Shown here: one piece after another, positions 23,970 to 36,624 of the stretch
How positions within the stretch are numbered: position 1 is the first letter of the stretch
How the letters are laid out: every line of letters begins with the position of its first letter
Assembly: GCA_005880875.1 (NCBI GenBank)
Contig: VBJI01000017.1
Location: forward strand, 1 to 38,316
Origin: Chloroflexota bacterium
Lineage (GTDB): Bacteria; Chloroflexota; Dormibacteria; CF-121
Reading direction: 5' to 3'
DNA: 38,316 nucleotides
Position numbers and translations under genes: made by a program
Notes under the pieces: model-generated
Told to the model about the DNA's origin: nothing
The model's input: only the letters and a program-made list of their open reading frames with translations
Database searches by the model: none

Positions 23970-26579
23970 TCAGCGCCTGGCGAAGTAGCGGTGGAAGCCC
24001 TCGACGATGTGCTCGAGGTCGCGGCGCTGAAGGCCCTGGTGGCAACCGATGGCAAATCCGCGTCGATTGATGCGGGCCGCCACCGGGTACTGCGGTTCGA
24101 GGTCGCCGAAGACCTTGCGATACACGGGCTGGTTGATCAACGGCATCAAATGCCGGGTTTCGATGCCGGCCATCTCCAGGTGCAGCAGCAGCGCTTCGCG
24201 GTCGACCCCATCCTTGACGATGATCGGGTACATCATCCAGGCATGCTCCGTGTCTTTTCGCACCGTGGGGAGCTGAAGATACCGGGTGAGATCGGCGAGA
24301 CCGCTGTTCAAGGTCGCGGCGTTTTCCTGGCGGCGGCGGAGAATGTCCTGATAGCGGGCCAGCTCGCCGACGCCGAGGGCCGCCTCCATCTCGGTCGCCC
24401 GATAGCTGTAGCCGACGTGAATGAAGGAGAAGCGGCGCGCCACCATCTGCTTGAGGACGTCCTTGTCCTTGGTGTCGTCGTCATCAATCGATAGATAGAT
24501 GTTGTCGCGCCCGTGGTTCATGAGGCTCTTCATCAGCGTCGCCAGGCTCTCGTCGTTCGTGGTGGCAAATCCGCCGACACCGGTCACGATCAGGTGGGCC
24601 ACATAGCTGGAAAAGCACGCGACATCGCCCCACGACCCGGTGGGCCGGCCTTTGTAGTGGACGAACATGGTCTCGCACGAGTCCTCGATCACGCGCAGGT
24701 CGTGCGCGTTCGCGAACGCCATGATCGGGTCCATGTCACAGGGCTGACCAAACAGGTGGACCGGCATGATGGCGCGCGTCCGTCGGCTCAGATGCTTCGA
24801 CAGTTGCGCCGGGTCGATGCCGACGTGATCGGACTCCACGTCGACGAAGACCGGCTTGAGCCCGTTCTGCAGCACGACGTTGGAGCTGGCTACGAAGGTG
24901 ACGGCCGGGACCAGGATCTCGTCGTCGGGCTTCCACTGGTAGTGCTCCTTGAGCGCGTGGACGGCCACCTGCAGCGCGCTCGTCCCGCTGTTGCAGAAGA
25001 TCGCGTAGCGCCGGTCGTGGAGCCGGGCGAATTCCTGCTCGAAGCGCTGGGTGTACTCACCGTACGACAGCCGGTTTTTGTTGAGAACGTCGTTGACGTA
25101 TTCCCGCTGCAGGGCGCTGATCTCCGCCGTGCCGAGGCCGATGCGCGCCGGGGTGCCCTGCGCGGCCGGGCGCGCTTCCATGGGCGCGAGAACGGGCGTA
25201 CCCTTTCGCATCGTCGCCATCAGGTCGGTGCCTTGACCGTCCGGCTGGTAGCCGCGCTGCCGCAGCATGGTCTGGACGCCGGCGCGCTCGCCCCGACCGA
25301 GGCCCAGGATGATCCGTCCGGCGGGCGCCAGCACCCGATCGAGCTCTTCGACGGCCTGCTCCTGCCCCGCGGCTCGTCCTGGATGACCCCAGAGCGCCAG
25401 GTCGAAGCTGCCGTCCGGAAATGGCAGGGCGGTTTCGGAGCCGCGCAGCAGCGGCCGGCCGAAACGACGGGCCCAGCGCAGCTTGTTCAGGCGATCATCC
25501 AGCCCAACCGCCTCCGGCAGCGAGGCCAGCAAGGGATCCGCGCCGCACTCGAGCAGGAGGGTTCGTTGGCTCCCCTGTGAGGCATCCTGGATCGCCGCCA
25601 TCCGCCGCCGGGCGCGCGCCCGGCGAATTGGGTTGTACGACGTCAGCGACCAGCTCTCGTAATCGGCCGAGTCCGGCGAGTTGCGGAGCTGCCGCAGGCG
25701 CCAGAACGTGCGCAGGTAGGAGACGACGAACTGCAGGAGCATCACGTGCGAGCGTCCGGTGAAGCGCGCCTTGTGATGGAGCGGCACCTCGATCACCTGG
25801 TGGCCATCCGCGACGATCCGCAGGAGGATGTCCTCGAGGACGTCGAAGTTGCGACCCTCTACCGCGATGGTCTTGATCACGGACTGGCGGTAAAGCCGAA
25901 AACCGGATGACATGTCGCGAAACTGCACCCCGAGGCCGAAGCCGTACACCCGGTTCAGGATGCGGCTGAAGAGCTTGCGGTAGATCGGCATGTCGGCGCG
26001 GCCGCCTTCGACGTAGCGGGACGCGATCACCAGGGCGGCATTCTCCCGCTCGGCCCACATCGCCTCCAGGAAATCGGGATCGTGCTGGTGGTCGCCGTCC
26101 ATGGTGGCGATGTACCGACCGCGCGCCACGCTGAAGCCCATCCGCAAGGCGCCACCGTAGCCCGGCTCGGTCTGTCGCGCCACCCGAGCCCCGCCTTCGG
26201 CGGCGACCTGGGGCGTGCCATCGGTCGATCCCGCGTCGACCACGATCACCTCGTAGCTCACGTGCAGGCGTTCGAGAACAGCCCGGACCTGGGGCAGCAG
26301 CGTCCGGAGGTTACTGGCCTCGTTCCAGGCGAGCACCATGATGGTCAAGTCGACCATCGGGGTGATCAGCTTGGGCGTCTCGTCGCCGGCGGGCTCGGTC
26401 AGGTCAGGGATGCCGTCCACGACCGGGAAGCCGTGGCCGCCGAGGCAGCGGGCGATGTCCGCCTCGACCACGCGCAAGCGCAGCCGGCAGCGCGGACAGG
26501 CGAGGTCCGCCGGCAGCGGATTGGGCTGCTCGAATCGAAGTGATTCGAGGCGGGCACTCTGATCGAGAACGCCGTCCAG
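23970..26579 (-). CDS. Fusion: zinc-ribbon, family 2 glycosyltransferase, methyltransferase-like domain and DegT/ColD-like domain
   Basis: About 869 residues from CTG 26579; the region before TTG 26477 is needed because it holds CPRC. Order: Trm112-like zinc ribbon (C28, C31, C45, H49; ending VVDGIPDL); DPM1-like GT2 (77-300, with MDGDHQHDP near 161-169); a degenerate SAM-methyltransferase-like domain (about 320-465, DGSFDLALW); and a PLP-fold DegT-type domain (490-869). In the last, the Schiff-base lysine position reads SSYVAHLIVTGVGG, with His662. His replaces Lys in ColD and in the E1 dehydrase of 3,6-dideoxysugars, so a dehydratase rather than an aminotransferase is possible. A cell-surface glycan role is inferred. 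The start is uncertain because sequence seems lost at this junction. Confidence 0.75.
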   Translation of the reverse strand: MDGVLDQSARLESLRFEQPNPLPADLACPRCRLRLRVVEADIARCLGGHGFPVVDGIPDLTEPAGDETPKLITPMVDLTIMVLAWNEASNLRTLLPQVRAVLERLHVSYEVIVVDAGSTDGTPQVAAEGGARVARQTEPGYGGALRMGFSVARGRYIATMDGDHQHDPDFLEAMWAERENAALVIASRYVEGGRADMPIYRKLFSRILNRVYGFGLGVQFRDMSSGFRLYRQSVIKTIAVEGRNFDVLEDILLRIVADGHQVIEVPLHHKARFTGRSHVMLLQFVVSYLRTFWRLRQLRNSPDSADYESWSLTSYNPIRRARARRRMAAIQDASQGSQRTLLLECGADPLLASLPEAVGLDDRLNKLRWARRFGRPLLRGSETALPFPDGSFDLALWGHPGRAAGQEQAVEELDRVLAPAGRIILGLGRGERAGVQTMLRQRGYQPDGQGTDLMATMRKGTPVLAPMEARPAAQGTPARIGLGTAEISALQREYVNDVLNKNRLSYGEYTQRFEQEFARLHDRRYAIFCNSGTSALQVAVHALKEHYQWKPDDEILVPAVTFVASSNVVLQNGLKPVFVDVESDHVGIDPAQLSKHLSRRTRAIMPVHLFGQPCDMDPIMAFANAHDLRVIEDSCETMFVHYKGRPTGSWGDVACFSSYVAHLIVTGVGGFATTNDESLATLMKSLMNHGRDNIYLSIDDDDTKDKDVLKQMVARRFSFIHVGYSYRATEMEAALGVGELARYQDILRRRQENAATLNSGLADLTRYLQLPTVRKDTEHAWMMYPIIVKDGVDREALLLHLEMAGIETRHLMPLINQPVYRKVFGDLEPQYPVAARINRRGFAIGCHQGLQRRDLEHIVEGFHRYFARR
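26529..26549. repeat. Perfect 8-base inverted repeat at the divergent gene junction
   Basis: CTCGAATC and GATTCGAG are separated by five bases. It lies inside the start region of both divergent genes, where each has lost its conserved beginning. It may mark a fold-back join. Confidence 0.5.
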
Positions 26580-26582
26580 CTG

Positions 26583-27593
26583 GTGATGCCGTCACCGACC
26601 GCGCTGGTGGCCGACCGGGTCAAGCAGGCGACCGCCGATCGGGCCGACCTGTTCCTGACCGGTGTGATGATGGGAGGCGGGCCGGACCACTGGGCGGTGG
26701 AGGCCCACCTGCGCGAGGGACTGCGGGTCTATGCCACCCCGGATGCCGCACGGACCTTCGACGATGACCTGGGCCGCGTCGAGGCGATGGGCGTGCGCCT
26801 CGTCGACTCGGCTGACCGGGCGAACGGCGCCCGTCGCCTGGAGATGCGGGATTTCTATGGCGCCGAGCTGATAGATGCGCTACGGGCGTTCGGGGTCAGC
26901 ACGGTGTTCGATGCGGTCGCGGCGGCCGTCTTCGATCACGGTGCGGCGCCGCCGGGCGTGAGCGACCGCCGGTTTCGTTTCGACTATCTGCGCGAGCAGG
27001 TCGAGCGCGGCACCGGGCTGGCGGGGTTCGGCTTTCTCAGCGGTGAGGTCCCCTCGCGGATGACCCGAATGGAAGCGGTGGCGAGGACCTGGACCGGATC
27101 CGAGCCGCTGTTTCTGATGGATACCGGCCCGGCGGCCATCCTGGGTGCGCTCGACGATGGTCGCGTCGGGTCGACCCGACGACCGATGGTGGCAAACCTC
27201 GGAAACTTCCATACGATTGCCACCCTCCTCGACGGGCAGCGGATCGTAGGGCTGTTCGAGCACCACACCGGCGAGCTCACCCGCGAAAAGTTGGAGGGCT
27301 ACCTCGACGGACTCGCCACCGGCCGGCTGTCCAACCAGGCGGTCTTCGACGACATGGGGCACGGGGCACTGGAGCTCGGACCGGTCACGTCGCCCCCCGA
27401 GCTACTCGCGGTCACGGGGCCGCGGCGCCGCCTCCTCGACGGGTCGCGATTGCGCCCGCACCTGGCCGTACCGCACGGCGACATGATGCTGGCCGGGTGC
27501 TTTGGGCTGCTGCGGGCGCTCGCCGGGCGGTTGCCCGAGTTTTCCCCGGCGATCGACGAACAGCTGAGGCGAAGCGGATCTGAAATCGGCTGA
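26583..27593 (+). CDS. DUF1786 protein, N-terminus missing
   Basis: A 336-residue protein matching DUF1786 (named from a supposed pyruvate-formate-lyase-activating link that is unproven). Seen are LPSPT-like MPSPTALVADRV, FLTGVMMGGGPDHWAVEAHLR, VYATPDAARTFDDDL, FLMDTGPAAILGAL and NLGNFHTIATLLDG. Family homology continues upstream of the start codons through LIENAVQLV, and the expected first 20 residues (a glycine-rich, actin-like nucleotide loop of the IDxGxGTQD type) are absent; a TGA lies just before. So GTG 26583 or ATG 26586 is only the first available start. It probably follows a deletion that also removed the glycosyltransferase start. Confidence 0.7.
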   Translation: MMPSPTALVADRVKQATADRADLFLTGVMMGGGPDHWAVEAHLREGLRVYATPDAARTFDDDLGRVEAMGVRLVDSADRANGARRLEMRDFYGAELIDALRAFGVSTVFDAVAAAVFDHGAAPPGVSDRRFRFDYLREQVERGTGLAGFGFLSGEVPSRMTRMEAVARTWTGSEPLFLMDTGPAAILGALDDGRVGSTRRPMVANLGNFHTIATLLDGQRIVGLFEHHTGELTREKLEGYLDGLATGRLSNQAVFDDMGHGALELGPVTSPPELLAVTGPRRRLLDGSRLRPHLAVPHGDMMLAGCFGLLRALAGRLPEFSPAIDEQLRRSGSEIG

Positions 27594-27609
27594 ACGAGAG
27601 CGGCACCCG

Positions 27610-27615
27610 TAGAAT
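27610..27615 (+). promoter_or_regulatory. -10 box of the AAA/VWA operon
   Basis: TAGAAT, 33 bases before the TTG start, with AGAGG as ribosome binding site six bases before TTG. The -35 region is weak. Confidence 0.4.
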
Positions 27616-27648: not shown

Positions 27649-29043
27649 TTGGAGAACGCCACGACCATCGCCCAGCTTCGCCAGAGTGAGTACCGTGTCC
27701 TCCCCGTCAAGGAAGAGATGCGCAAGAACCTTGTTCGCAAGATCAAGGCGAGCGACGTGCTCTTCCCGGGCATCATCGGATATGACGGGTCCGTCATCCC
27801 GCAGGTGGAGAACGCCATCCTGTCGGGCCAGGACGTCGTGTTCCTCGGTGAGCGCGGCCAGGCGAAGAGCCGGCTGATCCGGTCACTCGTCAGCCTCCTC
27901 GATGAGCAGGTCCCGGTCATCGACGGCTGCGAGATCAACGACAATCCCTACGTCCCGATCTGCCGGGCATGCCGCGACCGGGTCGCGGCCCAGGCTGACC
28001 GGGTGGCGGTGCGCTGGATCAGTCCGGACGAACGCTACAGCGAGAAGCTGGCCACGCCGGATACCTCGATCGCCGACCTGATCGGTGAGGTGGATCCGAT
28101 CCGGGTGGCCGAGGGCAAGTACCTGGCGGACGAGCTGACCATCCACTACGGCCTGGTGCCGCGCACGAACCGCGGCATCTTCGCCATCAATGAGCTGCCC
28201 GATCTGGCGGAGCGGATCCAGGTGGGCTTGCTGAACCTGATCGAGGAACGGGATGTCCAGATCCGCGGTTTCAAGCTACGCTTGCCGATCGACGTCTACG
28301 TCGTCGCCAGCGCGAACCCCGAGGATTACACCAACCGCGGCCGGATCATCACCCCGCTCAAGGACCGATTCGGGGCGCAGATCCGAACCCACTATCCCCG
28401 CAGCGTCGAGGATGAGATCCGCATCGTCGAGCAGGAGCGGACCGACTTCCAGGATCGCGAGCTCACGGTGATCATGCCGGACTACATGAAAGAGATCGTG
28501 GCGGAGGTGACCCAGCTCGCTCGCCGCAGCCCGAAGGTAAACCAGCGGTCGGGGGTCAGCGTCCGAATCTCGATCACCAACTACGAAAACCTCGCGTCGA
28601 ATGCCTCTCGCCGCGCGCTCCGCACCGGCGAGACCGAGGCGGTGCCCCGGATCAGCGATCTTCCCTCGATCATTCCCTCCAGCGCGGGCAAGCTCGAGAT
28701 GGAGACCTGGGAAGAGGGTGATGACCAGACGGTCTTGGAGAAGATCATCAAGACGGCCGTCCTCAATGTGTTTCGACGCCATTTCGAGTCCAGCCAGTTC
28801 ACGGAACTGGTGCAACGCTTCGACGCCGGTCTGACCTTTGAAGTCTCCGAGGGCCAGCCGGCCGAGCGCTATATGGCCCTACTGCGCGAGCTGCCTGGAA
28901 TGGAAAAGGCGTTGAAGGGCCTGGGCCTCGACAAGCGGCCGGCGCTCGCCGCCTCAGGGGTCGAGTTCGTGCTCGAGGGGCTGCATCTCAGCAAGCGGAT
29001 CAACAAGACCGAGCTGGACGGTGGCGCGATCTACGCCGGCTAA
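27649..29043 (+). CDS. ChlI-like AAA+ ATPase
   Basis: A 464-residue AAA+ protein related to magnesium chelatase subunit I and MoxR. Walker A is GERGQAKS (67-74). Walker B is GIFAINELPDL, and SANPEDYTNRGRIITPLKDRF includes the sensor and arginine-finger region. The length and gene order resemble the mycobacterial Rv0958-Rv0959 pair, as I recall it. It would remodel a target together with the VWA protein encoded two codons later. No chlorophyll or cobalamin chelatase large subunit is nearby, so metal insertion is unproven. It starts TTG with AGAGG upstream. Confidence 0.85.
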   Translation: MENATTIAQLRQSEYRVLPVKEEMRKNLVRKIKASDVLFPGIIGYDGSVIPQVENAILSGQDVVFLGERGQAKSRLIRSLVSLLDEQVPVIDGCEINDNPYVPICRACRDRVAAQADRVAVRWISPDERYSEKLATPDTSIADLIGEVDPIRVAEGKYLADELTIHYGLVPRTNRGIFAINELPDLAERIQVGLLNLIEERDVQIRGFKLRLPIDVYVVASANPEDYTNRGRIITPLKDRFGAQIRTHYPRSVEDEIRIVEQERTDFQDRELTVIMPDYMKEIVAEVTQLARRSPKVNQRSGVSVRISITNYENLASNASRRALRTGETEAVPRISDLPSIIPSSAGKLEMETWEEGDDQTVLEKIIKTAVLNVFRRHFESSQFTELVQRFDAGLTFEVSEGQPAERYMALLRELPGMEKALKGLGLDKRPALAASGVEFVLEGLHLSKRINKTELDGGAIYAG

Positions 29044-31035
29044 ATGATCTCGCGGTCCAACCGCTACGAGCGCTGGGACGGATCTCAGGAGCCCTTCGGA
29101 CGCGATGCGGAGGACCTCTTCGACCGGCTCGCCGAGGATCTGTTCCAGGGCGGCGACTTCGACTACGCGTTGCACCGGCTGATGAGTCGCGGCTGGCGCG
29201 ACCGTCAGGGGCGCAAGCTGCCCGGCTTCGAGGAGATGCTGGAGCGGCTCCGGCAGAAGCGGCTGCAGCAGCTGAAGCGGTACAACCTGAATGACGTCTT
29301 CGGCAACATTCGGGAGCGCCTGAACGACATTCTTCGTCGCGAGCGCCAGGGCATCAACGAGCGATTGGAACAGGCGCCCGAGAGCGCGAAGCGGGTGCTG
29401 CAGAAGATCACGAAGAAGAAGCTGCAGGAGCTCGACCGGCTGCCCGAGGACGTGGGCGGCACCATCCGTCAGCTGAACGACTACGAGTTCATGGACGAAG
29501 GCGCGGCGCAGGCTTTCCAGAAGCTGATGGAGGAGCTCAAGCAGCAGGTCTCGCAGACCTACTTCAAGAACATGACCCGCACCATGCAGCAGCTGCGGCC
29601 CGAGCAGCTCACTGAGATCAAAGAAATGATGAAGGCGCTCAACCAGATGCTGCGCGATCGGCTCGAGGGCAAGCCGCCGAAATTCGAGCAGTTCATGCAA
29701 CGCTTCGGCCATTTCTTCGGCCCCAATCCGCCGAAGACGCTCGACGAGCTGATCCAGCACCTGGAGCGGCAGATGGCGCAGATGGAATCCTTGATGCAGT
29801 CCCTCTCGCCGGAGATGCGCCAGCAGATGCAGGATCTGATCGAGACGACCCTCAACGATCCGGAGCTGCAGGCGCAGATGGCCGAGCTCGCCGCGCAGTT
29901 GGAGCTGTTGTCGCCGCGTCCCGGGCTAGGCAGCCGCTACGCGTTCTACGGCTCGGAGTCGCTGCCGCTGCAGGAGGCGCTGTCGTTGATGGAGCGCCTG
30001 CAGGGCATCGAGGACCTGGAATCCGCGTTGCGCGAGGGCTACCAGGGCCGGCAGCTCACGCCGGAGCAGTCCGCGCAGCTGCAGCAGTTGCTCGGGTCGG
30101 ATGCTCGTCAGGCGGCGGACCAGATGAGTGAGCTCGCTTCCCAACTGGAAAAGAAGGGTTACGTGCAACGCGGCCGGCGCGGCATGGAGCTGACTCCGCG
30201 CGGGATGCGCCGCATCGGACAAAAGGCGTTACGCGATCTCTACACCCGGTTGAAGCGCGACCGCTTCGGCGATCATCCGATCAGCGTTCGCGGGCTCGGC
30301 TCGGAGCGATCCGATGAGACCAAGGTCTACGAGTTTGGCGATGCCTTCAATCTTCATGTCGAGCAGACCCTGATGAACGCGCTGCGGCGCGAAGGTCCCC
30401 GCGAACCGATCCGGCTGAAGACTGACGACTTCGAGGTCTACCGTTCGGAGTTCAGCGCCCAGTCGGCGACGGTGCTGATGATCGACATGAGCCGGTCGAT
30501 GCCATTGCGGGGCTACTTCTACGCTGCCAAGAAGGTGGCGCTGGCGCTGGATGCGCTGATCCGCAGCCAGTTTCCGCGCGATTTTCTGCAAGTGATCGCC
30601 TTCAGCGATTATGCCCGGCCGGTGAAATCGCATCAGCTGGCCGAGCTGACCTACAACGAGTCGATCTATGGCACGAACATCCAGCACGGGCTGATGCTGG
30701 CTCGCCAGTTCCTGAACCGGCACAAGACCGGCAACAAACAGGTGATCATCGTCACCGACGGGGAGCCGACCGCACACATGGAAGGCCAGCAGGCTGTCTT
30801 CTTCTATCCACCGTTGCCCGAGACCTTTCAGAAAACGCTGCTCGAGGTGCAGCGCTGCACCCGAGAGCACATCGTCATCAATACCTTCATGCTCGACAAC
30901 GACTACCACCTGGTCTCGTTCGTCAAGCAGATGACTCGCATGAACGGTGGTCGGGCCTTCTTCGCCAGCGCCGACCGGCTGGGGGACTACGTCCTGCTCG
31001 ACTACGTCGACCGCAAACGCAAGGCCAGCCGCTGA
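29044..31035 (+). CDS. VWA-domain partner of the AAA+ ATPase
   Basis: A 663-residue protein. Residues 1-280 are mostly helical and rich in Gln, Glu, Leu and Met (likely coiled coils); the VWA domain is at about 470-655. Its metal (MIDAS) site is DMSRS (from Asp481) with Thr in YGTNIQHG and Asp572 in VTDGEP. VWA proteins of this type pair with MoxR/ChlI ATPases and recruit the substrate. It starts ATG directly after the ATPase stop (TAAATG). Its stop overlaps the methyltransferase gene by CTGA. Confidence 0.88.
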   Translation: MISRSNRYERWDGSQEPFGRDAEDLFDRLAEDLFQGGDFDYALHRLMSRGWRDRQGRKLPGFEEMLERLRQKRLQQLKRYNLNDVFGNIRERLNDILRRERQGINERLEQAPESAKRVLQKITKKKLQELDRLPEDVGGTIRQLNDYEFMDEGAAQAFQKLMEELKQQVSQTYFKNMTRTMQQLRPEQLTEIKEMMKALNQMLRDRLEGKPPKFEQFMQRFGHFFGPNPPKTLDELIQHLERQMAQMESLMQSLSPEMRQQMQDLIETTLNDPELQAQMAELAAQLELLSPRPGLGSRYAFYGSESLPLQEALSLMERLQGIEDLESALREGYQGRQLTPEQSAQLQQLLGSDARQAADQMSELASQLEKKGYVQRGRRGMELTPRGMRRIGQKALRDLYTRLKRDRFGDHPISVRGLGSERSDETKVYEFGDAFNLHVEQTLMNALRREGPREPIRLKTDDFEVYRSEFSAQSATVLMIDMSRSMPLRGYFYAAKKVALALDALIRSQFPRDFLQVIAFSDYARPVKSHQLAELTYNESIYGTNIQHGLMLARQFLNRHKTGNKQVIIVTDGEPTAHMEGQQAVFFYPPLPETFQKTLLEVQRCTREHIVINTFMLDNDYHLVSFVKQMTRMNGGRAFFASADRLGDYVLLDYVDRKRKASR

Positions 31036-31913
31036 AGGATCGCGTCGCCGAGCACAACAAGCAGATGTGGGAGCGGCTGGCCAAAGCCGCTATGAACTAC
31101 ACGCGGCCCTTCGGGCGGCCGCCCAAGTCCCGAGCCGGCATGCGCCGCTTTATGGATCCGCGAGGCCGTCTCAAGGGCGTGCGCCTCGACGGCGCCCGAG
31201 TGCTGGGGCTCGCTGCCGGCGGTGGCTGGGACCCGGTGATCTTCGCCAAGCTGGGCGCTGAGACGACCGTGTTCGACATCTCGCCGACCCAGTTGCAAAC
31301 GGTCCGCCACCTGGCGGCGCGCCAGCGCGTCAAGCTGCGGCTGGTGCGCGGCAACATGAAAGACCTTTCGGTGTTCAAGGACGCCTCCTTCGACGTCGTC
31401 TGGCACTGTCATTCGCTGGTCTTCATCGACGACGCGGTCCGGGTGCTCAAGGAAGTCGGGCGGGTACTGGCGCCCGGCGGTACCTACCTGCTGTCGACCA
31501 TGCACCCCACGACCCTGCGGCTGTACGGCACCTACAAGGATGGGGGCTGGCGGCCGAAGATCAGCTATTTCACGGACAAGCCGGTTCCCTATGTCAGCGA
31601 GTGGGACATGACCTGGACGCTCGGGAACAAGAAGCTGGTGGCGCCGACCATCGAGTTCGGCCATCGCTTCGAGACCATTGTCAATGGGATGGTGGCGGGG
31701 GGCATGGTGGTCGACGGGATCTGGGAGTTCTCTCCCGGTCCGCCCGAGCCCGACGCGGAGCCTGGCAGCGAGGCGCATCTCGACCTGCTGTTCCCGGCCT
31801 TCATCGAGGTGCGCGGCAAGAAACCGGTGCCGGGCGCCTTTGCCGCCGATAGGCGGCCAGCAGCTCGGCCCGCTGTGGCGGCGAAAGGTACTTCACGGCG
31901 TCGCGCACGGTGA
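31032..31913 (+). CDS. SAM-dependent class I methyltransferase
   Basis: A 293-residue protein. Motif I is VLGLAAGGGWDPVIFAKLG; ETTVFDISPTQL gives the acidic residue of motif II; and FDVVWHCHSLVFIDDAVRVLKEVGRVLAPGGTYLLS contains motifs III-IV. The substrate is unknown. The start is probably CTG at 31032: it overlaps the VWA stop as CTGA and gives KDRVAEHNKQMWERLAK, a typical first helix. ATG 31065 is the alternative and would shorten it by 11 residues. The last 30 residues are basic and Ala-rich and read through the convergent alkD remnant. Probably works with the ATPase/VWA pair. Confidence 0.82.
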   Translation: MKDRVAEHNKQMWERLAKAAMNYTRPFGRPPKSRAGMRRFMDPRGRLKGVRLDGARVLGLAAGGGWDPVIFAKLGAETTVFDISPTQLQTVRHLAARQRVKLRLVRGNMKDLSVFKDASFDVVWHCHSLVFIDDAVRVLKEVGRVLAPGGTYLLSTMHPTTLRLYGTYKDGGWRPKISYFTDKPVPYVSEWDMTWTLGNKKLVAPTIEFGHRFETIVNGMVAGGMVVDGIWEFSPGPPEPDAEPGSEAHLDLLFPAFIEVRGKKPVPGAFAADRRPAARPAVAAKGTSRRRAR

Positions 31914-32134: not shown

Positions 32135-33115
32135 TTAGTGGAGCTTGGGAAGGACCTGCTTGCCGAAGGCGTCGATCCACTCACGCTGGTTTCGTCCCAC
32201 GTTGTGGAGGTACACGCGGTCGAAACCGAGGTCGATGAACTTCTGGATTTCCCGACGATGGACATCAATGTCTGAGGAGATCAGCATCCGGCCCTTGAAG
32301 TCTTCCGGCCGGACGATCTTCGCCATTTGCTCGAAATCAAACGGTGAGCGGATATCGGCTTTTGGGAATTTCATGCCACCGTTGGGCCACTCCTTCAGCG
32401 CGTTGCGCATGGCTTCCTCGTCAGTGGGCGCCCAGGAGAGATGCAGCTGGAGGATCTTGTGAAGTGTCGATGGATCCTTGCCGGCCTCGCGGGCCCCCTT
32501 CTCGAAGCGCTCGAAGACGGTGCCGATCTTCTCCTCGGGGGCGCCGACCGTGATGATCCCATCGCAGAAGCGCCCGGTCTTCTCGGCGGTCACGGGCCCG
32601 GCCGTCGCCACGTAGATCGGCGGGGACTGCTCGGGCATGGTCCATAGGCGCACCGTCTCCATCTTGTAGTACTCGCCGGCGTGCTTCACGTCTTTTCCGG
32701 TGAACAGCTTTCGGATGATCTCGATCGACTCGAACATCCGGTTGATGCGCTCTGCGACCTCCGGCCAGTAGCCGGCGACGACATGCTCGTTCAGCGCCTC
32801 GCCGGATCCGAGGCCAAGCCAGAACCGGCCGGGGTACATCGCCGTCATGGTGGCGGCGGCCTGCGCGATGATCGCCGGGTGCGACCGAAAGGAGGGGCAG
32901 GTCACGCCGGGCCCGATGTCACCGTGTGTATGCTCGGCCGCGGCGGTCATGAATGACCACACGAAGGCGGCGTTGCCCTGCTGCGGTGTCCACGGTTGCA
33001 CGTGGTCGGCGGCCATCACGCCGCTGAAGCCGGCGGCCTCGGCGGCCTGGCAAAAACCAACGAGCTCCCGCGGATGGAACTGCTCGAGCATCGCGGCATA
33101 GCCGATGTGTGACAT
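32135..33115 (-). CDS. F420-dependent luciferase-like oxidoreductase (TIGR03557 type)
   Basis: A 326-residue TIM-barrel protein of the luciferase-like monooxygenase superfamily, close to the F420-dependent glucose-6-phosphate dehydrogenase group. Typical segments are GVMAADHVQPW, SPSF-like GVTCPSFRSHPAIIAQAAATM, GRFWLGLGSGEALNEH, and SPPIYVATAGPVTAEKTGRFCDGIITVG. It should reduce or be reduced by F420, made by the cofDCE genes just to the right. GGAGA precedes the ATG. The substrate is not certain. Confidence 0.88.
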   Translation of the reverse strand: MSHIGYAAMLEQFHPRELVGFCQAAEAAGFSGVMAADHVQPWTPQQGNAAFVWSFMTAAAEHTHGDIGPGVTCPSFRSHPAIIAQAAATMTAMYPGRFWLGLGSGEALNEHVVAGYWPEVAERINRMFESIEIIRKLFTGKDVKHAGEYYKMETVRLWTMPEQSPPIYVATAGPVTAEKTGRFCDGIITVGAPEEKIGTVFERFEKGAREAGKDPSTLHKILQLHLSWAPTDEEAMRNALKEWPNGGMKFPKADIRSPFDFEQMAKIVRPEDFKGRMLISSDIDVHRREIQKFIDLGFDRVYLHNVGRNQREWIDAFGKQVLPKLH

Positions 33116-33128
33116 GGTCTCCGTCGTT

Positions 33129-33383
33129 TTAGCGGTTGAACCGGCTCGGCGTCGACATCGTCTCGGGGCGCGGCCGGGCGAAGGACGCGATCACGGCGCC
33201 GGCGGCCAGGATGAGCAGCGCCACCACGAAATGCTTCAGTCTGAAGTGCGGCCCGGGCAGAATCAGGCTTTCGCTGGAGGTGCGGACCACGAGGTAGAAG
33301 ACCACGCCCATCAGGCCCACGAAGACCAGCACCAGCCCGGCCCAAAAGGCCATCGCATTGTTTTGCAGTGGGTTATCTTGCAT
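33129..33383 (-). CDS. Small hypothetical membrane protein
   Basis: An 84-residue protein with two membrane helices (about residues 12-33 and 50-66). AAGGAGG stands five bases before the ATG. It lies 13 bases upstream of the luciferase-like gene on the same strand and 17 bases after uppP, so it is probably in one transcript with them. No family recognised. Confidence 0.6.
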   Translation of the reverse strand: MQDNPLQNNAMAFWAGLVLVFVGLMGVVFYLVVRTSSESLILPGPHFRLKHFVVALLILAAGAVIASFARPRPETMSTPSRFNR

Positions 33384-33400
33384 TCGTCCTCCTTGACGCG

Positions 33401-34243
33401 CTAGCGGCTGAGCAGGATCAACGACAGGATCCCGAACGCCGCACAGTAAATGGCAAACGGATCAAGCCGTCCCACTCGAAAGTATCGCATGAGGTAGGCC
33501 ACGCTCAGAAAGGCGGCGACGCCGGACACAACACCGGCCAGCAGGTAGACGGGCAAATGTGGCAGTGCGGTGGCTGTGAACAAATCGGGAATCTTGAGGA
33601 TGCCCGCCCCCAGGATGACCGGGGTGGCGAGCAGGAACGCGAATCGGGCCGCGGCCTCGTGCGTCAGGTTGCCGAGCAGGCCGGCCACCATGCTGCTGCC
33701 GGATCGGGAGATCCCGGGCAACAGCGCCAGGATCTGCGCCGAGCCGATGCCGACCGCGGACCGGACGCTGAGCCGGTCGAGCGGCGTGCGGCCTTCCTCG
33801 GCCGCAAGGGCGTGGCGCCGCAGGCGTTCGCCGCCGAACATGATCACGCCGTTGATGATCAAGAACACCGCGGCCGCGCGAGGGCTGGCAAAAAGCGCCT
33901 GCACCTGCTTCTGCAGCAGCGTGCCGACGACGCCGACCGGGATGGTGGCGAGGATCAAGCGCCAGCCGAGGCGTTCGTCGGTGGTGCCCTGCAGCTGACC
34001 GGCGATCACGCTGCGCAGAACCGCCCGCACGATGGCCAGCCAATCGCGCCAGAAATAGATGACGAGCGCGATGGCCGTGCCGACGTGCAGCAAGACCACG
34101 AAAGCGAGAAAGGTGGGGTCGGCTTGATTGACGTTCCAGTGCAGCAGCGAGGGAAGTATCACCGTGTGCCCGAGGCTGCTCACCGGGAAGAGCTCCGTGA
34201 CGCCCTGCAGCAATGCCAATACGAGGGCCTGGAACAGGGACAT
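33401..34243 (-). CDS. uppP: Undecaprenyl-diphosphatase
   Basis: A 280-residue polytopic membrane enzyme that recycles undecaprenyl diphosphate for peptidoglycan and other wall polymers and confers tolerance to bacitracin. Motif 1 is LLQGVTELFPVSSLGH with the conserved Glu, and motif 2 is PGISRSGSSMVAGLL. AGGA precedes the ATG. It is divergent from cofD with 19 bases between the start codons. Confidence 0.93.
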   Translation of the reverse strand: MSLFQALVLALLQGVTELFPVSSLGHTVILPSLLHWNVNQADPTFLAFVVLLHVGTAIALVIYFWRDWLAIVRAVLRSVIAGQLQGTTDERLGWRLILATIPVGVVGTLLQKQVQALFASPRAAAVFLIINGVIMFGGERLRRHALAAEEGRTPLDRLSVRSAVGIGSAQILALLPGISRSGSSMVAGLLGNLTHEAAARFAFLLATPVILGAGILKIPDLFTATALPHLPVYLLAGVVSGVAAFLSVAYLMRYFRVGRLDPFAIYCAAFGILSLILLSR

Positions 34244-34250
34244 CGTTTCC

Positions 34251-34256
34251 TATGAT
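34251..34256 (+). promoter_or_regulatory. -10 box of cofD, leaderless type
   Basis: TATGAT followed by six bases and the ATG at 34263. The same arrangement precedes the moaD-moaE fusion. The upstream -35 region (CTGGAA) is weak. Confidence 0.55.
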
Positions 34257-34262
34257 GCTGGA

Positions 34263-35213
34263 ATGAGCGCGGGGCCCGTCGTCGTCCTGGCCGGCGGCGT
34301 CGGGGCCGCCCGCTTCCTGCGAGGCCTGGTGCGTGTCATCCCGCGGGAGGATCTGGTCGTCATCGGCAACACCGGTGACGACCTGTGGTGGCAGGGGCTC
34401 TATATCGCGCCAGACCTGGACACCGTCACCTACTGGCTCGCCGGGGTGGCGGATGAATCGAGGGGTTGGGGACTCAAGGGCGATAGCTTCACCGCGCAGA
34501 ACGCCCTGGCCGGCCTGACGTCGGCGGCCTGGTTCCAGCTCGGCGACCGCGACCTGGCCACCCATCTGTATCGCACGGGCCGGCTGAATGCCGGTGCGCC
34601 GCTCCACCAGGTCACGGCTGAGCTTGCTGAGCGGCTGGGAGCCCGCAGCCGCGTCCTGCCGATGAGCGACGATCCGGTGGAGACGCGGCTCAAGACCGAT
34701 GCTGGCGACCTGCATTTTCAGGAGTACTTCGTCCGCGAACGCTTCCGTCCCAGCGTCCGGGAGATCTACTGGACCGGCATCGAGGCGGCCCGGCCCGCGC
34801 CGGGCATCGCAGAGGCGATGTCGGCCGCCCGGGCGATTCTGATCGCCCCGAGCAACCCGGCGATCAGTATCGGGCCCATCCTTCGAGTGCCCGGGATGCG
34901 AGCGCTGGTCAGCGCGGCCCGCGCTCGGACCGTGGCGATCTCCCCGCTGATTCAAGGCCGCGCCGTCAAGGGGCCGACGGTCGAGCTGATGCGCGCCGAG
35001 GGCATCCGGCCGGATGCCCTGGGGGTGGCGCAGCTCTATCGTGAGATCGCCGCCGGCTTCGTCCTGGACGCGGCCGACGCGTCGCTGGCCTCGGCGATTG
35101 CGGCCATGGGGTATCGCGTGGCCGTCCGTCCTACCCTGCTCGACGACCTCGCGGCAGCGCGCGAGGTGGCGGCCGCGGCGTTGGACCTGCTGCGCCAACC
35201 GGCGGCCGCGTGA
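34263..35213 (+). CDS. cofD: 2-phospho-L-lactate transferase (F420 biosynthesis)
   Basis: A 316-residue CofD that joins a phospholactyl-type guanylyl or phosphoenolpyruvyl precursor to the deazaflavin Fo. Seen are VVLAGGVGAARFLRGL (nucleotide loop), VIGNTGDDLWWQGLYIAPDLDTVTYWLAG, LKGDSFTAQNAL, QLGDRDLATHLYRTGRL and IAPSNPAISIGPIL. ATG at 34263 is fixed by the -10 box. It is the first of the cofD-cofC-cofE run; the stop overlaps cofC by GTGA. Confidence 0.95.
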   Translation: MSAGPVVVLAGGVGAARFLRGLVRVIPREDLVVIGNTGDDLWWQGLYIAPDLDTVTYWLAGVADESRGWGLKGDSFTAQNALAGLTSAAWFQLGDRDLATHLYRTGRLNAGAPLHQVTAELAERLGARSRVLPMSDDPVETRLKTDAGDLHFQEYFVRERFRPSVREIYWTGIEAARPAPGIAEAMSAARAILIAPSNPAISIGPILRVPGMRALVSAARARTVAISPLIQGRAVKGPTVELMRAEGIRPDALGVAQLYREIAAGFVLDAADASLASAIAAMGYRVAVRPTLLDDLAAAREVAAAALDLLRQPAAA

Positions 35214-35878
35214 GGCTCGCCATCGTCGTTCCGGTCAAGTCGCCGAAGCGGGCGAAGCATCGTCTCGAGGCCGTGATGTCGGAGGCCGAACGAACCCGGC
35301 TGGCGATGACCATGGCGCGCGACGTGTTCGGAGCCGCGGCGCAGCTCAAGGAGTACGCGCGGTTCGTCGTCTCCGACGATCCGGATGTCCTGGACGAAGG
35401 GCGGCGGTTTGGGCTCGAGCCGGTCGAGGATCGGGTCCGACAGGGCCAGAGCGCCGCGGTCGGCCAGGGATTTGGCCTGGCCTGGGAGCGCGGCTTCACC
35501 GCGGCTCTGACGATCCCCGGCGATGTCCCGGGTGTGACCGCCGACGAGTTGCGCGGCTTCAGCGCGTACCGTCCGGAGATCGAGGTCCTGCTGGCGCCCG
35601 ATCGAGGAAGGATCGGGACCAACGGGCTGCGCCTCGTGCCACCCCATGCCATCAGCCTGGCGTTCGGCGAAGACAGCTTCAATCTGCATCGTACCGCCGC
35701 GGCCCGTACCAATCGCAGTTTTGCGGTGATCGACGTCGAGGGCCTGCGGTACGACCTCGATACCCCCGACGACGTGGTCGCCTTCGTCCGGCTTGGCCGC
35801 GAGAGCGGCACGCTGGATTTACTTCGCGAGCTGAAGGTTGTGGATCGCGCGCTGGCCGCGACGCCGCCGCACGCTTGA
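35210..35878 (+). CDS. cofC: 2-phospho-L-lactate guanylyltransferase
   Basis: A 222-residue nucleotidyltransferase that makes the guanylylated donor used by CofD. RLAIVVPVKSPKRAKHRLE is the N-terminal GTP loop, ALTIPGDVPGVTADEL carries the metal-binding Asp, and GTNGLRLVPP and FGEDSFNLH follow. It starts GTG in the cofD stop (GTGA) and ends as TTGA with cofE. The donor (phospholactate or phosphoenolpyruvate) cannot be told from sequence. Confidence 0.93.
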   Translation: MRLAIVVPVKSPKRAKHRLEAVMSEAERTRLAMTMARDVFGAAAQLKEYARFVVSDDPDVLDEGRRFGLEPVEDRVRQGQSAAVGQGFGLAWERGFTAALTIPGDVPGVTADELRGFSAYRPEIEVLLAPDRGRIGTNGLRLVPPHAISLAFGEDSFNLHRTAAARTNRSFAVIDVEGLRYDLDTPDDVVAFVRLGRESGTLDLLRELKVVDRALAATPPHA

Positions 35879-36624
35879 CGCCGGTCTCGATCTATCCCGT
35901 CCGGGGCCTGCCGGAGATCGGACGTGGTGCGCCGCTGGCGGCGCTCATCCTCGATGGCATCAAGCAAGCCGGGATGTCCCTCGAAGCCGGCGACGTCGTC
36001 ATCATCACGCAGAAGGTGGTCTCCAAGGCCGAGGGTCGGGTCCGGCGGTTGGATGAGGTGCAACCCTCGGAGCGCGCTCGCGAGATCGCCGGCCGGATCG
36101 CCTACGACGCTCGCCATGTCGAGCTGATTCTTTCCGAATCGGTGCGGGTGGTTCGCGAGGCGCCCCGGGTCTTGATTACAGAGACACGCCAGGGTTTCGT
36201 CTGCGCCAATGCGGGTGTCGACCGGTCTAACACCGGCGGCGCCGAGCTGGCCGTGCTGCTTCCGGAACGGCCGGACGAGTCGGCGCGCCAGCTCCGGGAC
36301 GCGCTCGTCGCGGCGTCTGGGGCGGATGTCGGCGTGGTGATTTCCGACAGCTTTGGCCGGCCCTGGCGCGAAGGGCAGGTGAATGTGGCGATCGGCGCCG
36401 CCGGAGTCAGGGCCCTTCGCGACTACCGCGGCGAACGCGACCCGGATGGCTACGAACTGCAGGGGACGGAGCTCGGTGTGGTCGATGAGCTCGCCGCCGC
36501 CGCCGAGCTGGTCATGGGAAAATTGGACCGGGTTCCGGTGGCGCTGATCCGCGGGGCATCGGTCTCGGGCAAGGGTCGTGTGCGTGATCTCCTCCGCGAT
36601 CCGGCGACCGACCTGTTTCGATGA
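35875..36624 (+). CDS. cofE: Coenzyme F420-0:L-glutamate ligase
   Basis: A 249-residue GTP-dependent ligase adding glutamates to F420-0. Seen are YPVRGLPEIGRGA, VVIITQKVVSKAEGRVRRLDEV, LILSESVRVVREAP, GFVCANAGVDRSN, VVISDSFGRPWREGQVNVAIGAAG and DELAAAAELVMGK. It corresponds to the archaeal-type CofE length and lacks the C-terminal flavin domain of mycobacterial FbiB. The start TTG 35875 forms TTGA with the cofC stop. Its own stop overlaps the phosphoesterase gene by ATGA. Confidence 0.94.
   Translation: MTPVSIYPVRGLPEIGRGAPLAALILDGIKQAGMSLEAGDVVIITQKVVSKAEGRVRRLDEVQPSERAREIAGRIAYDARHVELILSESVRVVREAPRVLITETRQGFVCANAGVDRSNTGGAELAVLLPERPDESARQLRDALVAASGADVGVVISDSFGRPWREGQVNVAIGAAGVRALRDYRGERDPDGYELQGTELGVVDELAAAAELVMGKLDRVPVALIRGASVSGKGRVRDLLRDPATDLFR

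Follow-up and report, generated by a model that had tools for sequence, protein, structure and literature searches.

A ChlI/MoxR-like AAA+ ATPase and a VWA protein encoded side by side in a Chloroflexota bacterium are a widespread, deeply conserved pair that is inherited together, and together they probably form an obligate remodelling machine of two components that acts in the manner of NorQ/NorD. The pair lies in a stretch of 38,316 nucleotides (the window; contig VBJI01000017.1 of assembly GCA_005880875.1), part of a 2.5 Mb, 75% complete genome assembly whose near relatives are Chloroflexi MAGs. The features of the window discussed here are as follows.

27608..27615, + strand: putative promoter-like −10 box (cgTAGAAT) of the AAA–VWA unit, between the DUF1786 gene and the AAA gene
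27649..29043, + strand: AAA+ ATPase, ChlI/MoxR-like, 464 aa, initiated at TTG downstream of a conserved AGAGGT ribosome site
29044..31035, + strand: VWA partner, 663 aa, with an N-terminal helical arm (20–406) and a C-terminal VWA domain with a complete MIDAS
29494..29943, + strand: Gln/Met-rich helical stretch, residues 151–300 of the VWA protein, from composition and predicted helices
30313..30453, + strand: candidate pore-finger region, residues 424–470 of the VWA protein (YEFGD...TLMNALRRE...DDFEV)
30484..30498, + strand: MIDAS motif DMSRS (D481, S483, S485), after which come T544 and D572
31065..31913, + strand: SAM methyltransferase (Methyltransf_11), a neighbour outside the machine

These coordinates bore out the three same-strand open reading frames listed in a preliminary description of this DNA, the methyltransferase ending at 31913, and its TAAATG junction, where the ATG of the VWA gene comes immediately after the ATPase stop codon. 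Pfam returned weak AAA_5 and Sigma54_activat matches for the ATPase, VWA_2 for its partner and Methyltransf_11 for the third gene. TAGAAT occupied the box position upstream of the ATPase at 11 of 15 loci of the window's family, the remaining four being a truncated contig, a split gene and loci L042 and L043. As both this box and the AGAGGT ribosome site are conserved before the ATPase, the ATPase–VWA unit appears to form a separate transcription unit, transcribed on its own.

Upstream of the ATPase, most members of the window's family have a DUF1786 gene (26583–27593, +), which was not seen beside the pair elsewhere. On the opposite strand, an 835-aa ORF (23970–26477, −) fuses a glycosyltransferase of family 2 to a methyltransferase-like segment and a DegT-type aminotransferase; it was full-length in two relatives (G005 and G013), with partial matches in others. 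Downstream of the pair is an F420 cluster (32135–36624) encoding an LLM oxidoreductase, CofD, CofC and CofE, along with an undecaprenyl-diphosphatase gene on the opposite strand.

Across 329 sampled genomes from two phyla (181 Chloroflexota and 148 Actinomycetota), the AAA and VWA genes were found in the identical 125 genomes, 84 from Chloroflexota and 41 from Actinomycetota (whose members were found by search), and neither was ever found alone. The pair was carried by 61 of the 117 genera in the Chloroflexota sample and the VWA protein by 39 of 41 near relatives of the window genome, and among the matches listed outside the two sampled phyla were Dormibacterota, Rokubacteria and Gammaproteobacteria records. 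Co-occurrence held even where the genes were unlinked, in 11 genomes of family f3 with the ATPase on another contig and in G159, G139 and G259. At the 82 loci extracted with both genes, these always shared one strand, with a gap of <100 bp in 53, 100–2500 bp in 24 and 2.7–3.8 kb in 5. Pairwise distances between AAA proteins tracked those between VWA proteins (r = 0.947 across 73 loci, against a maximum of 0.09 in 500 permutations); shared ancestry partly explains both the co-occurrence and this correlation, and the raw counts overstate independence. We found no relatives of the pair on viral contigs. Four genomes carried one AAA gene with two or three VWA paralogues, and every paralogue examined keeps the MIDAS, the pattern to be expected if one motor works with several adaptors.

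Two single genomes are of separate note. One 99%-complete genome of 1.7 Mb (G171), which also lacks COX1, holds short broken pieces of both genes with an in-frame TGA (contigs C49 and C5), which looks like joint decay of AAA and VWA. In another (G131; L191 7983–13113), a second, divergent ATPase–VWA pair follows a 4-hydroxyphenylpyruvate dioxygenase (HPPD) gene at a distance of about 25 bases.

The mycobacterial proteins Rv0958 and Rv0959 are probably orthologues of the pair, judged by how they are annotated, by the length of the gene and by the domains described (PMC11237697, PMC7092591). They share the same annotation pattern (magnesium chelatase and conserved hypothetical), and the Mycobacterium marinum orthologue gene measures 1,392 bp (PMC11237697), as does the AAA gene of the window without its stop codon.

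In the ATPase, the Walker A motif is GERGQAKS, the Walker B-like motif FAINE carries N-E, the sensor-1 region contains N223, and R240, R246 and R306 are candidate arginines. The Walker A form GERGQ(A/G)K(S/T)R was invariant among aligned ATPases, and N-E occurred in 62 of 62, at the place where BchI/ChlI have D-E in the alignment. Hydrolysis of ATP is likely, since the catalytic glutamate is retained in Walker B, and the N-E form could reflect altered hydrolysis. The AF2 model of the ATPase (mean pLDDT 82.4, pTM 0.81) was weak around residues 130–240, the stretch relevant to the helix-2 insert; its fold match to NorQ was one among many AAA+ matches, and RavA was a weak fold match.

The AF2 model of the VWA protein (mean pLDDT 86.2, pTM 0.71) comprised a helical arm that is ordered as far as residue 406, then a weakly modelled hinge (407–423) and the VWA domain. 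The long Gln/Met-rich helical part described previously was recovered at residues 151–300 (14.0% Gln, 8.7% Met; predicted helical, mostly at high confidence), and the Asp481 singled out for mutation is indeed the MIDAS aspartate, with S483, S485, T544 and D572 as the other MIDAS residues. A complete DxSxS...T...D motif was present in 74 of 75 VWA proteins, the lone exception having a gap through the motif. Also strongly conserved were the segment 424–470 before the VWA core, including R449 (75/75) and N445 (72/75), and the C-terminal stretch up to V655. Searching the PDB with the VWA model placed the NorD VWA at ranks 1–4 (E 7e-7 to 8e-6), while single-sequence PDB searches with the whole protein and with its VWA domain gave chance matches only, PADLOC gave only weak matches, along the helical arm, and Pfam found no AAA domain in the protein. 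Joint inheritance (125/125), the MIDAS (74/75) and the NorD-like VWA fold together match what is expected of a MoxR-type AAA+/VWA pair.

In NorQD, a finger of the NorD VWA (residues 403–448) enters the NorQ pore and NorD binds the ring by its C-terminus; a proposed twisting of the adaptor on ATP turnover would let iron into the reductase (PMC13036017). The candidate finger region here, placed by position and conservation, holds the same relative place as the NorD finger, and by analogy the finger and C-terminal contacts may run parallel in the two systems. We picture the AAA+ protein as forming a ring on which the VWA protein would dock by its C-terminal VWA domain, with the conserved C-terminus on the ring and the finger segment (about residues 424–470) probably entering the pore. 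The long ordered arm (20–406) and the MIDAS site would hold a client protein, and ATP turnover would twist the adaptor and so reshape the client, perhaps admitting a metal or cofactor or freeing a bound inhibitor.

As nearly all carriers have a haem-copper oxidase (COX1 in 81/84 carriers versus 70/97 non-carriers in Chloroflexota), the client would most likely belong to aerobic metabolism. This link is not specific, because methylmalonyl-CoA mutase correlates about as well (82/84 versus 57/97). The F420 gene CofD was present in 74/84 carriers versus 40/97 non-carriers, and none of the three associations is strict. A connection to F420, raised by the downstream cofD, cofC and cofE, was rejected, as 40 of the 97 non-carriers have cofD and 10 carriers lack it. 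The neighbours of VWA paralogues (histidine kinase, LLM oxidoreductase, glyoxalase and, in G131, HPPD) gave no constant guide to the client, and CobB beside the pair was likewise set aside as a clue limited to family f2.

The pair might instead be a machine linked to B12, for the repair or loading of a cobalamin enzyme, methylmalonyl-CoA mutase being one candidate. This would fit the mutase count among carriers, cobB just upstream of the pair in several family f2 genomes, and a transposon insertion in M. marinum, 49 bp upstream of the orthologous gene, that came out of a B12-resistance screen (PMC11237697). We regard such a role as unlikely: the mutase is also found in more than half of the non-carriers and is missing from two carriers, the cobB adjacency is confined to one family, and the screen contributes a single upstream insertion. 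Slightly less likely still is a role in protein quality control with ClpC1 in place of one as a metal or cofactor chaperone. The Mycobacterium smegmatis orthologue of Rv0958, MSMEG_5512, is a recurrent ClpC1 interactor by affinity purification, and by two-hybrid according to earlier work cited there (PMC10433963); lists of ClpC1 interactors are, however, rich in abundant proteins, MSMEG_5512 could be a mere ClpC1 substrate, and direct action would be a further step from these data. No DNA association was found for MSMEG_5512 (PMC7092591). We keep to a NorQ/NorD-like machine as the preferred reading.

In family f2 the pair is preceded by the gene for cobyrinate a,c-diamide synthase (CobB; L045 11611–13062), and the product of a downstream gene reads like a B12-binding domain. 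In families f2 and f4, and also at L097 and L098, the VWA gene is followed by a gene of ~290 aa without a Pfam or NCBIfam match (L045 7097–7960).

That the ATPase is ChlI-like, as first described, holds as resemblance and fails as membership. Its closest PDB chains by sequence search were BchI/ChlI (E about 1e-10 to 1e-9), yet it scored 51.5 bits against the BchI-ChlI NCBIfam equivalog, where the cut-off is 466.95, and the putative cobaltochelatase model TIGR02442 gave 48 bits for the ATPase and 32 bits for the VWA protein (in a match beginning at residue 433) against a cut-off of 779. CobN/ChlH was present in 9/84 carriers versus 20/97 non-carriers in Chloroflexota, and neither the window genome (75% complete) nor any of the 4 further sampled members of its family yielded it, in keeping with the earlier view of a MoxR/VWA-type pair lacking a chelatase partner. 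Given the 51.5-bit score, the lack of CobN/ChlH in 75 of 84 carriers and the invariant N-E Walker B, the two proteins are, on sequence grounds, not chelatase subunits. It is thus very unlikely that they are the I and D subunits of a magnesium or cobalt chelatase whose CobN/ChlH is encoded elsewhere, even though ChlI/BchI are the nearest solved ATPases, both proteins touch TIGR02442 and the mycobacterial orthologue carries a magnesium chelatase annotation (PMC7092591, PMC11237697): an H subunit missing from so many carriers cannot be required, the scores fall far below curated cut-offs, and genomes of family f3 have, beside the pair, separate and more distant ChlI/ChlD-like genes of about 30% identity.

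The methyltransferase is a separate, lineage-specific gene and not the third part of a machine. It was detected in 16 of 17 genomes of the window's family and was absent from 19 pair-bearing genomes outside it, 8 of the same class and 11 named (all at E ≤ 1e-20). It stands beside the pair on the same strand in the window, G005 and G002, but among family members it is usually separated from the pair by an LLM oxidoreductase gene, by a gene on the opposite strand or by 1–3 kb, and in G015 it is on a different contig from the pair. Relatives have a TAGAAT-like box directly before the GTG or TTG start of the methyltransferase; in G005, a 98%-identical relative, a 26 bp spacer with a TAGAAT box is followed by the GTG start. 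Compared with G005, the window lacks about 34 bp after the VWA stop codon (31036–31064), and with them the promoter-like box and the GTG start. The CTG at 31032 is not a usual start, and the first usual one is the ATG at 31065, 29 bases past the VWA stop. The tight coupling proposed for the three genes therefore stands at the TAAATG between AAA and VWA and falls at the CTGA contact with the methyltransferase, which arose because a private deletion of about 34 bp, either real or an assembly fault, removed the box and the start codon. A three-part machine with the methyltransferase as modifier of the client or of the VWA protein, as the same-strand adjacency in three genomes and the retention of the gene within one family might suggest, is thus extremely unlikely, given its absence from the other pair-bearing genomes, the usual interruption of the linkage and the gene's own promoter-like box in relatives. 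The three-gene linkage is not conserved in relatives, the very outcome that the preliminary description had named as counting against its proposal, and a gene-neighbourhood scan, suggested earlier as a search for constant partners, found no constant neighbour of the pair across groups.

The pair occurs in Chloroflexota, Actinomycetota, Dormibacterota and Rokubacteria as well as in some Proteobacteria. We found no functional study of it in the literature searched. The mycobacterial 'magnesium chelatase' label is misleading and is still used to interpret data (PMC10774309). With co-inheritance perfect and a chelatase H subunit lacking, that label can give way to a testable claim, that of an AAA+/VWA remodelling machine, which is open to genetics in M. 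smegmatis; setting the methyltransferase aside spares a false lead.

Among known systems, ChlI/ChlD and CobS/CobT-type motors are similar in that the ATPase sequence is nearest to ChlI and the VWA protein has an upstream motif matched by TIGR02442, but the pair lacks an H subunit in most carriers, scores far below equivalog cut-offs and has no Pfam AAA domain in its VWA protein. Unlike the MoxR-vWA ternary conflict systems (VMAP, iSTAND, FtsH; PMC7159879), it has no constant third gene across groups. RavA/ViaA, CoxD/CoxE and CbbQ/CbbO likewise combine an AAA+ protein of the wider MoxR clade with a VWA co-chaperone (PMC7159879, PMC13036017), but act on other clients; RavA was only a weak fold match and the others had no sequence match here. 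NorQ/NorD is alike in having an AAA+ ring partner and a VWA protein that has an N-terminal part, a C-terminal VWA domain and a MIDAS, the NorD VWA being the nearest solved fold to our model; no nor genes were noticed among the neighbours of the pair at the loci scanned. It differs in that the arm here is ~390 residues long and predicted to be ordered, whereas the NorD linker is unresolved in structures, and in that the ATPase here has 464 aa and an N-E Walker B. Tentatively, and with somewhat less than even confidence, we suggest that many aerobic bacteria, mycobacteria probably among them, may share in this pair a vertically inherited and so far undescribed AAA+/VWA machine, which would be set apart by its N-E Walker B, its ordered arm and the service of one motor to several adaptors, and which would activate a widely shared enzyme.
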